Translations under genes and position numbers: made by a program | Notes under the pieces: generated by a model | What the model saw: the letters and a program-made list of their open reading frames with translations, nothing else | Told to the model about the DNA's origin: nothing | The model's database searches: none | Assembly (NCBI GenBank): GCA_000961595.1 | Contig: LADO01000007.1 | Span: 1-44,175, forward strand | Origin: Peptococcaceae bacterium BRH_c4b | GTDB taxonomy: Bacteria; Bacillota; Desulfotomaculia; Desulfotomaculales; Desulfocucumaceae | Length of the DNA stretch: 44,175 bases | Reading direction: 5' to 3' | In this document: positions 14,713 through 41,466 of the stretch, one piece after another | Layout: the number at the start of each line of letters is the position of its first letter | Numbering within the stretch: position 1 is the first letter of the stretch

Positions 14713-14847
14713 TTATCTCGCTAACAGCCTGTAAGATCCCGTCCTCGAAGGTCGGGGATCAACAGGCTGTAAAGCTCGAACTAAGTTCGCTCTAAGGGTT
14801 CGGTAGGGGAATAACCCCTTCCGAATCCAAGGCTCACTTATATTTTT
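14713..14847. repeat. Family-B structured intergenic repeat, copy 1 (uninterrupted)
   Basis: About 135 bp that reappears at 37044-37288. It folds into three hairpins: an outer ACAGCCTGT/ACAGGCTGT stem with an inner GATCCC/GGGATC stem, a small CGAAC-TAA-GTTCG stem, and GGGTTCGG...CCGAATCC with an inner GGG/CCC. It separates the DUF3243 gene from the biotin-carrier gene. An open frame crossing it (14713-14895) is not credible as a gene. Confidence 0.85.
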
Positions 14848-18960: not shown

Positions 18961-18985
18961 GGCACCCTTTAAAGGGTGCCTTTTT
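18961..18985 (+). terminator. Terminator of tig-clpP-clpX
   Basis: Perfect 10-bp self-complementary arms (18961-18970, 18971-18980; the AT-rich centre forms the loop) followed by five T. Confidence 0.9.
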
Positions 18986-18987
18986 CT

Positions 18988-19110
18988 AGTTGGGGACATT
19001 CCTTCGACCCCAGAGCCATTCCAATCGGGGACATTCCTCCGACCCCAGAGCCAATCTCTAAAGAGAGGTGTGTCCCCATTCCTTTGAAAGAGAGGTGTGT
19101 CTCCTTTCAT
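18988..19110 (+). repeat. Family-A repeat, locus A1 (two 35-bp units plus tail)
   Basis: Two direct 35-bp units begin at 18992 and 19027 (GGGGACATTCCTTCGACCCC / GGGGACATTCCTCCGACCCC), followed by two tail units ending GAGAGGTGTGTCCCC and GAGAGGTGTGTCTCC. The head and tail pair as GGGGACA/TGTCCCC with CCTC/GAGG, so the RNA or single strand forms a long hairpin. It directly follows the clpX terminator. Confidence 0.9.
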
Positions 19111-19145
19111 CTTATAAAATTTTTTAAATTTTTGCTATTAAGGGG

Positions 19146-21422: not shown

Positions 21423-21437
21423 CTAACCCCCTTACAC

Positions 21438-21635
21438 TAGTTGGGGACATTCCTCAGACCCCAGAGCCATTCCAATCGGGGACATTCCTCAGACCCCAGA
21501 GCCATTCCAATCGGGGACATTCCTCCGACCCCAGAGCCATTCCAATCGGGGACATTCCTCCGACCCCAGAGCCAAGCTCTAAAGAGAGGTGTGTCCCCAT
21601 TCCTCTAAAGAGAGGTGTGTCCCCCTTCCTTACTC
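21438..21635 (+). repeat. Family-A repeat, locus A2 (four 35-bp units plus two tails)
   Basis: Four direct 35-bp units begin at 21443, 21478, 21513 and 21548, the first two with TCAGACC and the last two with TCCGACC. Two 26-bp tail units follow (GAGAGGTGTGTCCCC). Orientation is the same as at A1. The rest of the 400-bp hcp-lonB gap (21636-21749) shows only the lonB SD region. Confidence 0.92.
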
Positions 21636-31436: not shown

Positions 31437-31592
31437 TTGGGGACATTCCTTCGTGAAATTGTTAAAGGTAAGGAATAAAAGGAAACACAGAAGGTGTGTC
31501 CCCTTACATAAGTTGGGGACATTCCTTCGCGATATTATTATAAGGTAAGGAATGATGGGAAACACAGAAGGTGTGTCCCCTTACCTTAATAA
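31437..31592 (+). repeat. Family-A repeat, locus A3 (two longer tandem units)
   Basis: Two tandem units of about 75 bp, starting GGGGACATTCCTTCG and ending GAAGGTGTGTCCCC, lie between valS and folC. The stem here is CCTTC/GAAGG where the other loci have CCTC/GAGG, a compensated change. The second unit's tail ends about 17 bp before the folC start. Confidence 0.88.
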
Positions 31593-31603
31593 GGGGTGTC
31601 GGT

Positions 31604-35647: not shown

Positions 35648-35875
35648 ACGGCGGCTAAGCGTCCTCCCGCCTTGCGCATTTGTTTTTAGGTAAATGCAGG
35701 TAATTTTTCAGTAACCAGTTATATTGATATTTGTATTGTCAATGGACGGGGAACCCCCTGCTATGAAGTATATATTGGTTATCACGTAAACAATTTTCTG
35801 GTGCATTTATTGTACGGGAGTTATAAAATATATGAGTAATACTGTATACCGAATCGTTAACCGGAGGTGAAGGGA

Positions 35876-37036
35876 GTGCCTCGCAGGGCTACCTATAAAA
35901 AGGCTTTTTACCTGGCCGTGCTGGTAGTGGCTTCGCTGGTGCTGGTTAAATATACCGCCTTTGGCAGGCTTTCCGTTTCACCTGTGGAGGCGGCACTCAG
36001 AGATGTATTATCACCCGTTCAGGGTTTGGCCACTCAGGTGGGGCACCGCATAAAAGGTCTGGTGTCCTTTCCTTTTGAAGTGGTGGGAATGACCAGGCGC
36101 AATGACGAACTCAGTGAGAGGCTCAAGGATGTAGAGGGTCAACTGAGGCAGATGGAGGAATACCGCCAGGAAAACGAGAGGCTGAAAAAGCTCCTTAATT
36201 TTAATTCCAGCACGGCCAGAGCCATGGGGCTGGAATTGGAAAGCGCAGTCGTTATTGGCCGGGATCCCGGAAACTGGTTCGGCATGATTAGAATAAACAA
36301 AGGATCTGCAGACGGTATCCGTAGGAATATGACTGTCTTAACGCCGGAAGGACTTGTGGGCAGGATAACCTCGGTCAGCAGCGCTTCAGCGGAAGTCCTA
36401 TTGATTACCGATCCTCGCAGCGGCGTGGGGACTCTGATTCAGGAAAACCGAACCCCGGGTTTGGTCGAGGGGATTGCCACAGCCTCAGGACAGGTACGGG
36501 TGGTGCATATACCAACGGGCTCAAAGGTTGCAAAGGGCCAGACAGTGGTTACTTCGGGGCTGGGAAGCCTCTACCAGAAGGGTATACCTGTAGGTACAGT
36601 GACTTCCGTCGGCCGGGAGTCCACCGGCTTGTTTATGAGCGCTGCCTTAATACCCTTTGTGGATTTCGACCGGCTGGAAGAGGTAATGGTGGTAACCACT
36701 GTAGGAAATCCCGATCCAAAAGTCAGTCTGGCGGATATTCAACCTCCGTGGGGGACTGCCAGGCACTACGGTAGTTCCCCAGGTACTACCCGGGCTGGAG
36801 ATCTGCCCCTGGAAAACGCAGCTAACGGTAATCAGCCTGCTGCCCAGCCTTTATCTGACGAACATGTACAACAAAGACCTGTCCAACAGCAACCCCGGAT
36901 ACCCAATAATACTTCGCCGGGAGGCGTGCCACCATCCGGAAACGTTTTACCAACCGCACCTGATACACAGACCCCTCCTGCCGGACAAACCAGTCCCCGG
37001 GCATACGGCCCTGGTAATGGCACAGGAGATAATTGA
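35876..37036 (+). CDS. mreC: Rod shape-determining protein MreC with a long proline-rich tail
   Basis: Bitopic elongasome protein. A membrane helix (about 8-28) is followed by a coiled coil (RRNDELSERLKDVEGQLRQM, about 75-105) and the double beta-barrel core (FGMIRINKGSADGI, GLVGRITSV, DFDRLEEVMVV). From about residue 285 a tail of roughly 100 residues, rich in Pro, Gln, Gly, Asn and Thr, replaces the usual short end. GTG at 35867 belongs to the SD GGAGGTGA; GTG at 35876 is the likelier start, giving 386 residues. The stop is followed directly by a family-B repeat. Confidence 0.93.
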   Translation: MPRRATYKKAFYLAVLVVASLVLVKYTAFGRLSVSPVEAALRDVLSPVQGLATQVGHRIKGLVSFPFEVVGMTRRNDELSERLKDVEGQLRQMEEYRQENERLKKLLNFNSSTARAMGLELESAVVIGRDPGNWFGMIRINKGSADGIRRNMTVLTPEGLVGRITSVSSASAEVLLITDPRSGVGTLIQENRTPGLVEGIATASGQVRVVHIPTGSKVAKGQTVVTSGLGSLYQKGIPVGTVTSVGRESTGLFMSAALIPFVDFDRLEEVMVVTTVGNPDPKVSLADIQPPWGTARHYGSSPGTTRAGDLPLENAANGNQPAAQPLSDEHVQQRPVQQQPRIPNNTSPGGVPPSGNVLPTAPDTQTPPAGQTSPRAYGPGNGTGDN

Positions 37037-37123
37037 CCATTTTTTATCTCGCTAACAGCCTGTAAGACCCCCTCCTCGAAGGTCAGGGATCAACAGACTG
37101 TAAAGCTCGAAACTACTAAGGAT

Positions 37124-37178
37124 AGGGGACACACCTCTCTTTGGAGCATGGCTTTAGGGTCGGAGGAATGTCCCCAAC
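37124..37178 (-). repeat. Family-A repeat, locus A4 (single unit, reversed, inside family B)
   Basis: On the minus strand it begins GGGGACATTCCTCCGACCC and ends GAGAGGTGTGTCCCC, one 51-bp head-plus-tail unit. It is the simplest copy and probably shows the basic element. Confidence 0.88.
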
Positions 37179-37183
37179 GTATG

Positions 37184-37224
37184 AAAGTTCAGCTAACGAA
37201 ATCAGAGATTTCGAGCTTCACTTT
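37184..37224. repeat. Second inserted hairpin next to A4
   Basis: CGAAATC (37197-37203) and GATTTCG (37207-37213) form a perfect stem, extended by AGCT/AGCT and AAAGT/ACTTT. It is absent from family-B copy 1. Confidence 0.6.
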
Positions 37225-37336
37225 TAAGTTCGCTCTAAGGGTCCGATAGGAGAATAATCCTTCCGAACCCAAGGCCCACTTATATTTTAATTATATCATT
37301 TCGGGGATATCTGTTGTTGTACTGGAGGGTTGACCG

Positions 37337-37837
37337 TTGCGCCTGCTTTTCTTAGTGGCCATGATCGTGGTTTCTCTAATCGTCCAGTCCGCTTTTCTTG
37401 ATTCTTTTCATATCTGGGGTATAAAACCGGATCTTGTATTAGTCCTGGTTGTTTACAACGCTTTTTTACGGGGGCACCGGGAGGGTGCCTTTGTAGGGTT
37501 TTGCGGGGGAATGATACAGGATATTTATACCGGCAGCTATATAGGCCTAAATGCTTTGAGCTATATGACAGTGGGGTACCTTGTGGGTATGACCGAAGCC
37601 AAGCTGTATAAAGACAGCTCTCTTATAATGATGGCCCTGGTTTGGTTTGCCTCTGCCGGGGAGCAGTTCCTTTATTACCTTTTAATGACCTACACAGGGG
37701 TGACCATTTCACCCCTTGTGGCACTGGTCAGGGTGATTGTACCCACCGCTGCATATACTGCTCTGCTGGTTCCTCTTACCTATAAAAGATTTTATAGTTC
37801 CAATCAAAAAGGATTGTTGCGCGGACGAGAGGTATAA
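37337..37837 (+). CDS. mreD: Rod shape-determining protein MreD
   Basis: Small polytopic membrane protein of the elongasome, 166 residues with about five membrane helices and the family pattern WGIKPDLVLVLVVYNAFLRG and GFCGGMIQDIYTGSYIGLNA. TTG start with GGAGGG seven bases upstream. The gene lies between mreC and mrdA as expected; the repeats at 37044-37288 separate it from mreC, so readthrough may be reduced. Confidence 0.92.
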   Translation: MRLLFLVAMIVVSLIVQSAFLDSFHIWGIKPDLVLVLVVYNAFLRGHREGAFVGFCGGMIQDIYTGSYIGLNALSYMTVGYLVGMTEAKLYKDSSLIMMALVWFASAGEQFLYYLLMTYTGVTISPLVALVRVIVPTAAYTALLVPLTYKRFYSSNQKGLLRGREV

Positions 37838-40671: not shown

Positions 40672-41466
40672 ATGATGAGTGAAGTAATTGTTGTTACTTC
40701 AGGCAAGGGTGGTGTAGGCAAAACCACCACCACCGCAAATCTCGGCACGGGCCTGGCTGCCGCCGGACACAAAGCAGTACTGGTGGATGCCGATATCGGT
40801 TTGCGCAACCTGGACGTGGTGCTGGGATTGGAGAACAGAATTGTATATGATATAACTAATGTGACTGATAAGCAAATCCCATATAGAAAGGCTATCATCA
40901 AGGACAAGCGTTACGAAAACCTATTTTTGCTTCCAGCTGCACAGACCAAGGATAAAACAGCGGTCAGCCCGGATCAGATGAAGGAATTGTGCGATGACTT
41001 AAGACAGGAATTTGAGTACGTTATTATTGATTGCCCGGCGGGTATCGAACAGGGTTTTAAAAATGCCATTGCCGGAGCCGACAGGGCTATCGTGGTAACT
41101 ACCCCGGAGGTCTCGGCGGTACGGGATGCCGACCGTATTATCGGTCTGCTGGAGGCCAACGAACTCAGGGACCCCAAACTGATAGTCAACCGTCTCCGCT
41201 ACAACATGGTTAAAGCCGGCGACATGATGAGTATAGATGATATTTTAGACATTCTCGCCGTTGAGCTGCTGGGTGTAGTGCCGGAAGACGAGATGGTGGT
41301 GATCACCACCAACCGTGGGGAAACCGTGGTACAGGACGACAAGTCCCGCTCCGGCCAGGCTTACAGGAACATAGTCCGGCGTATGAATGGTGAGCAAGTT
41401 CCCCTGATGGATTTACAAGAAGGCGGCATATTGAAAAAGTTGCGGAAATTCATGGGCATGAAATAA
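40672..41466 (+). CDS. minD: Septum site-determining ATPase MinD
   Basis: Membrane-binding ATPase that recruits MinC. A deviant Walker A (SGKGGVGKTTT) is at the N-terminus; VDADIGLRNLDVVLGLENR and IIDCPAGIEQGF follow; the C-terminus ends in an amphipathic membrane-targeting helix (ILKKLRKFMGMK). GGGAGG stands five bases before two adjacent ATGs (40672, 40675); 264 residues. The upstream 27 bp of open frame are not coding. Part of this gene (41186-41231) reappears exactly at 44130-44175. Confidence 0.97.
   Translation: MMSEVIVVTSGKGGVGKTTTTANLGTGLAAAGHKAVLVDADIGLRNLDVVLGLENRIVYDITNVTDKQIPYRKAIIKDKRYENLFLLPAAQTKDKTAVSPDQMKELCDDLRQEFEYVIIDCPAGIEQGFKNAIAGADRAIVVTTPEVSAVRDADRIIGLLEANELRDPKLIVNRLRYNMVKAGDMMSIDDILDILAVELLGVVPEDEMVVITTNRGETVVQDDKSRSGQAYRNIVRRMNGEQVPLMDLQEGGILKKLRKFMGMK

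Follow-up and report, generated by a model that had tools for sequence, protein, structure and literature searches.

The closest described systems are the GTAG and CGTC families of REPs with their RAYT (TnpA-REP) transposases (PMC3733652, PMC2817692), and one of these accounts places REPs regularly inside palindromes in A. variabilis, T. roseum, and H. neapolitanus (PMC3733652). For IS200/IS605 and REP hairpins alike, a guide word at the foot is described (PMC6006769). Among other repeat families, long and short Correia elements are reported to differ by a 50-nt internal sequence, and YPAL targets to span or adjoin dyad symmetry (PMC2229807). We studied a nest of short repeats of two families, A and B, in the window, by which we mean the whole 44,175-nt stretch of DNA analysed; it is contig C3 of the 3.62-Mb genome (66 contigs) of Peptococcaceae bacterium BRH_c4b. 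In the literature searched, these repeats were not found described from either Desulfocucumis or Desulfotomaculum. A and B have the appearance of non-autonomous elements of the REP/IS200 type.

Layout of the nest between mreC and mreD

The nest lies between the mreC and mreD genes (Table 1). A preliminary description had reported about 110 extra bases within the CGAAC/GTTCG hairpin of this B copy when compared to the copy at 14713, and had taken them for one nested insertion of a single A unit together with a separate long hairpin. The size and the place are correct: the B copy between mreC and mreD measures 241 nt and the uninterrupted one, which has many copies elsewhere at 97–98% identity, 130 nt (a difference of 111 nt), and the extra DNA is in the middle hairpin of B. 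Both parts were also found, namely an A unit that is reverse-complementary (88–89%) to A at 19027-19084 and at 21548-21604 and, 3' of it, the hairpin GAAATC-AGA-GATTTC. A single event, however, does not account for them, since the second hairpin, hereafter insert C, also stands, without A, at this position of the B copies L020, L021, and L087.

In these three copies, a CCC...GGG with a short loop stands 5' of the extra hairpin. In the window copy an A unit stands in place of the CCCTAAAGGG of C, still with GAAAC on its left and AAAGTTCAG on its right. Because C occurs A-free at the same place in other B copies, A lies in the hairpin of C and not directly in the CGAAC/GTTCG stem of B, and because the hairpin of C predates A as a layer of its own, there are three levels in the nest rather than two. 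Judged from the aligned copies, it is A in C in B, with A inside the small CCCTAAAGGG hairpin of C. Three layers are visible by this comparison, B and B+C forms without A exist elsewhere, and A would be the last arrival at this site. A search with the C core pattern returned three exact sites, each within a B copy; there is a fourth site, as L020 has a variant core.

Table 1. Coordinates of the nest, its neighbours, and the uninterrupted B copy in the window.
Feature	Position	Strand	Basis
mreC, left of nest	35867..37036	+	Pfam MreC E 1.3e-47
B left arm (first hairpin), opens TTAT	37044..37111	+	94% identity to 14713-14780
Insert C left remnant (AC of GAAACCC) or junction bases	37112..37114	+	aligned with L021 B+C form; border ambiguous
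Single A unit, 69 nt, AAGG foot, AACGTATG tail	37115..37183	+	flank conservation across 120 A units sets borders
A core hairpin GGGGACA...TGTCCCC	37125-37175		within the 69-nt A unit
Insert C right part, hairpin GAAATC/GATTTC	37184..37225	+	also in three A-free B+C copies; folds
B right arm (third hairpin), closes CACTTATA	37226..37284	+	89% and 93% identity (two pieces) to 14713 copy
mreD, right of nest	37337..37837	+	Pfam MreD E 4.8e-14
Uninterrupted B, three hairpins	14713..14842	+	DNA fold z-score -8.67

At the corresponding site in a relative of the same genus (G001), mreC and mreD are separated by a short spacer with neither B nor A, and in G002, G005, G006, and G007 mreC runs into mreD on our reading of the sequence. 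Seven relatives were queried and five matched, all too diverged for an exact empty target to be read. On this comparison, the whole nest appears to be specific to the lineage of the window among the genomes examined. Elsewhere in the window, a 49-nt piece of a minD-like gene (41183-41231) is found again at the contig end (44127-44175; 98% identity), which may reflect a duplicate of the gene or an edge of the assembly.

Copies of B and the proposed spread of B with A inside

Searching the genome for the B left end, with two mismatches allowed, we found 67 sites (30 forward and 37 reverse); a reversed-pattern control gave 0. All 67 were inspected, and the automatic labels (B+A, 27; B, 21; noRE, 12; noRE+A, 3; B+C, 3; B+C+A, 1) were revised by eye in five cases: a right end is missing from L058-2613 and L063 (the latter also lacking A), L277 has no A, and L051-2992 and L276, both with a worn right end, became B+A and short B, respectively. 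In the final tally there were 21 uninterrupted two-ended copies (15 at 117–129 nt; 6 shorter), 3 B+C, 1 B+C+A, 27 B+A, and 15 sites without a right end nearby, one of which (L062) has A. Two-ended copies (n = 52) thus contained A in 28 cases, C in 4 (the window copy having both), and neither in 21. The copy at 14713 would have to be read as a deletion if most B copies were long, as the preliminary description had pointed out; the long B+C+A form is the window copy alone, 1 of the 67 left ends examined. The order proposed there, B before A, agrees with our census, A being inside B in every examined copy that has both.

The ends of B read TTAT-CTCGCTAAC ... GGCTCAC-TTATA. At the left end TT precedes ATCTCGCT, with T at -2 in 41/43 and at -1 in 43/43 copies; TTAT likewise stands at the right end, where the search pattern partly required it. 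We noticed no terminal inverted repeats in B. Its fold has hairpins near both ends, and in these subterminal hairpins and in the short, fixed target word on the left B agrees with non-autonomous IS200/IS605 elements.

Within B, A occupies four positions in the own genome, in both orientations. In type 1 (23 of the 27 B+A copies) a reversed A is in the middle hairpin, in type 2 (3 of 27) a forward A is between hairpins two and three, and in type 3 (1 of 27; L022) a forward A is between hairpins one and two. Among type 1 copies, L197 has a further A of type 2, A is nested in A at L067 and L069, and L261, L274, and L051 are rearranged. That single A units of about 50–85 nt are present at several distinct positions of B supports the earlier suggestion that A moves as a unit. 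The same holds in a second sense, for the 23 copies of one arrangement lie at scattered loci, each with its own flanks, and resemble a composite that has spread, which is the simplest reading of so many alike copies.

The type 1 copies contain two A lineages. Lineage a units in B have their best matches (92–100%) mostly in other B-borne units, L061 being also 94% identical to an isolated copy, and relatives of lineage b outside B are just as close as those inside. Comparison of B backbones, for which 46 of the 67 copies were used and in which a few type 1b rows are deletion forms with inflated distances, revealed that the four type 2 and type 3 backbones are closer than random labels (P 0.006), and that type 1 backbones do not cluster relative to random labels. 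The words at the junctions do not sort by A lineage either, GTTTAG and AAAG occurring with both. Type 1 copies could therefore also have arisen by A entering a single hot spot of B many times or by gene conversion among B copies, for which the unclustered backbones and the shared junction words speak. We consider this possible but doubtful, since the 23 copies agree in orientation and almost in position, and the lineage a units are close chiefly to one another.

Among 60 genomes, the strict A pattern was found in 18 and B in 8 (own genome counted in both). In G049, two A units from different subfamilies sit in a single B homologue, the G034 homologues being empty, and in G001 the A of one B copy (L101) lies almost at the type 3 position, indicating that A entered B more than once. 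The exact B left end was found in 14 stretches of named genomes, comprising 9 of Desulfocucumis palustris, 3 of Peptococcaceae MAGs (BICA1-7 and BRH_c4a), and 2 of a MAG labelled Actinobacteria (L105 and L115), which is possibly mislabelled or a mixed bin. By this distribution, the organism itself most likely falls within the Desulfotomaculum group. In two genera, worn B remnants and A-like traces lie beside the same 94%-identical stretch (L273 on C46 of the own genome, and L092 in G007), reflecting either shared descent or transfer.

In G002 and G005, B is at one orthologous place (L090 and L091; 88.6% identity over about 3.1 kb), next to genes that by eye are dnaK-like and dnaJ-like. Such retention might be expected if B were a conserved structured RNA or regulatory element under selection, with the insertions as minor decoration, and six base pairs of B had changes on both sides compared to 2.0 in shuffles. 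Slid controls, however, yielded 2–5 such pairs, an Rfam gathering search of the window returned one tRNA only, and the 67 B sites are scattered and many are truncated. We therefore regard an RNA or regulatory function of B as very improbable. Covariation was weak in the 19 B sequences, and an alignment-based fold retained the first hairpin only.

Insertion sites of A and the candidate mobilising enzymes

The strict A pattern matched 172 times in the own genome and 0 times in the control. From 132 instances, 12 outer or irregular ones were set aside, leaving 120 units out of the at least 172 in the genome. Like a REP, A is a short palindrome of high copy number and, at the loci inspected, is mostly intergenic. 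The foot word of A is AAGG (86 of 120 units) instead of the GTAG/GTGG or CGTC of REPs. Inside B lie 23 of these units, 53 have a second A or a REP-like motif no more than 40 nt away, and 44 are isolated.

Several loci display arrays. Window positions 18984-19111 and 21435-21632 hold A units and half-units with A inside A, and at 31437-31595 there are two longer units (65–66-nt subfamily) head to tail. Elsewhere in the genome, six A units, five of them identical, form a tandem with 64-nt spacing (L032; G000:C25:70045-70440). At three loci (L223, L231, and L051) A directly follows GGGGACGGTT, i.e., lies within a RAYT-type repeat.

The B+C form has three TAARG sites on the top strand and none on the bottom strand. 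Each of the three coincides with one of the positions at which A is inserted forward (type 3, window, and type 2), the window site being the TAAAG word in the small hairpin of C. The type 1 position fits TAARG poorly. These coincidences suggest that A may use a short sequence target (TAARG), a lead rather than a test because the word was noticed post hoc and the left end of A itself has AAGG.

The preliminary description had proposed instead that A targets hairpins, in which case hairpins or extruded loops as such would be preferred and the TAARG words incidental. A is indeed often found within other repeats; it lies inside hairpins in B, in further A units, and in a GGGGACGGTT repeat, and it occupies two hairpins of one B homologue in G049. 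Some of these copies, however, are co-amplified, and a TAARG word is common to the three forward sites in B+C. We paired the left flanks of the 44 isolated A copies with permuted right flanks under four settings, and found no excess of flanking stems (mean stem, P 0.13–0.35; stems ≥6, P 0.20–0.57), so that the proposed targeting of hairpins was not supported for isolated copies. Given also that the type 2 and type 3 sites fall between hairpins, we regard a preference for hairpins as unlikely.

We then turned to Y1_Tnp matches, of which the own genome has 12. A search of this genome and 12 relatives gave 68 rows; 60 loci were inspected, the other 8 all being from G034, with some loci scanned for GGGGACA only and others for GGGGACA or GGGGACG. 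None of the 60 had A on both sides, so the arrangement of REP copies flanking a RAYT gene was not seen for A. A lone A copy lies downstream of one locus (L078), and several RAYT-sized genes bear GGGGACGGTTC-type repeats at their ends. Comparison of the B ends with the 12 own Y1 loci gave no convincing match, and thus not the shared ends of a non-autonomous IS200/IS605 element.

We consider it rather probable that the nest arose by successive insertions of short non-coding hairpin elements, with A and B moved in trans by Y1/HuH enzymes and A hitch-hiking on B. B carrying insert C would have settled between mreC and mreD, and one A unit would then have inserted at the TAAAG word in the small hairpin of C. 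The enzymes acting in trans on each family would be tyrosine (Y1/HuH) transposases of single-strand DNA, of the IS200/IS605-RAYT type, with short target words, TTAT for B and TAARG-like for A; for both, Y1 mobilisation in trans is most likely on their anatomy (end hairpins, TTAT, and the A foot word). As B keeps both ends, it would still be mobile with A inside, and such hitch-hiking would explain the 23 type 1 copies. More tentatively, and at somewhat less than even chances, we envisage a two-tier system in which A enters B at TAARG, the ends of B spread the composite, and A enters A as well, giving nests of two to three levels; A, with its AAGG foot and GGGGACA stem, would then represent a new class of REP-like repeats in the Desulfotomaculum group, with the enzyme not linked to A.

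Comparison with known systems

Nests with readable empty forms reveal where such elements, otherwise only guessed to be mobile, have their edges and which word they probably target, and they suggest that one non-coding element can hitch-hike on another. The spread of REP-like repeats thereby becomes testable in the Desulfotomaculum group, the known picture being unchanged in kind. With its short, high-copy, intergenic hairpin and conserved foot word, A resembles the REP/RAYT system, some families of which are described inside palindromes (PMC3733652), but differs in having an AAGG foot and a GGGGACA stem rather than GTAG/CGTC and in that no A-flanked RAYT gene was found. B shares with non-autonomous IS200/IS605 elements the hairpins near both ends, the fixed TTAT flank, and the lack of noticeable terminal inverted repeats; unlike theirs, no parent element with its ends was found among the 12 own Y1 loci. 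The short and long forms of Correia/NEMIS, with an internal insert of about 50 nt, parallel B and B+C, although Correia has terminal inverted repeats and the likeness is one of described layout (PMC2229807). YPAL/RU-2 resemble the nest in their internal inverted repeats and in targets at or beside dyad symmetry; YPAL is described as making target duplications of 3–26 nt, whereas none were recognised at A or B sites (PMC2229807). With REPs inside palindromes already in print, the nest of A and B is of a known kind, and its layering is unusually readable.
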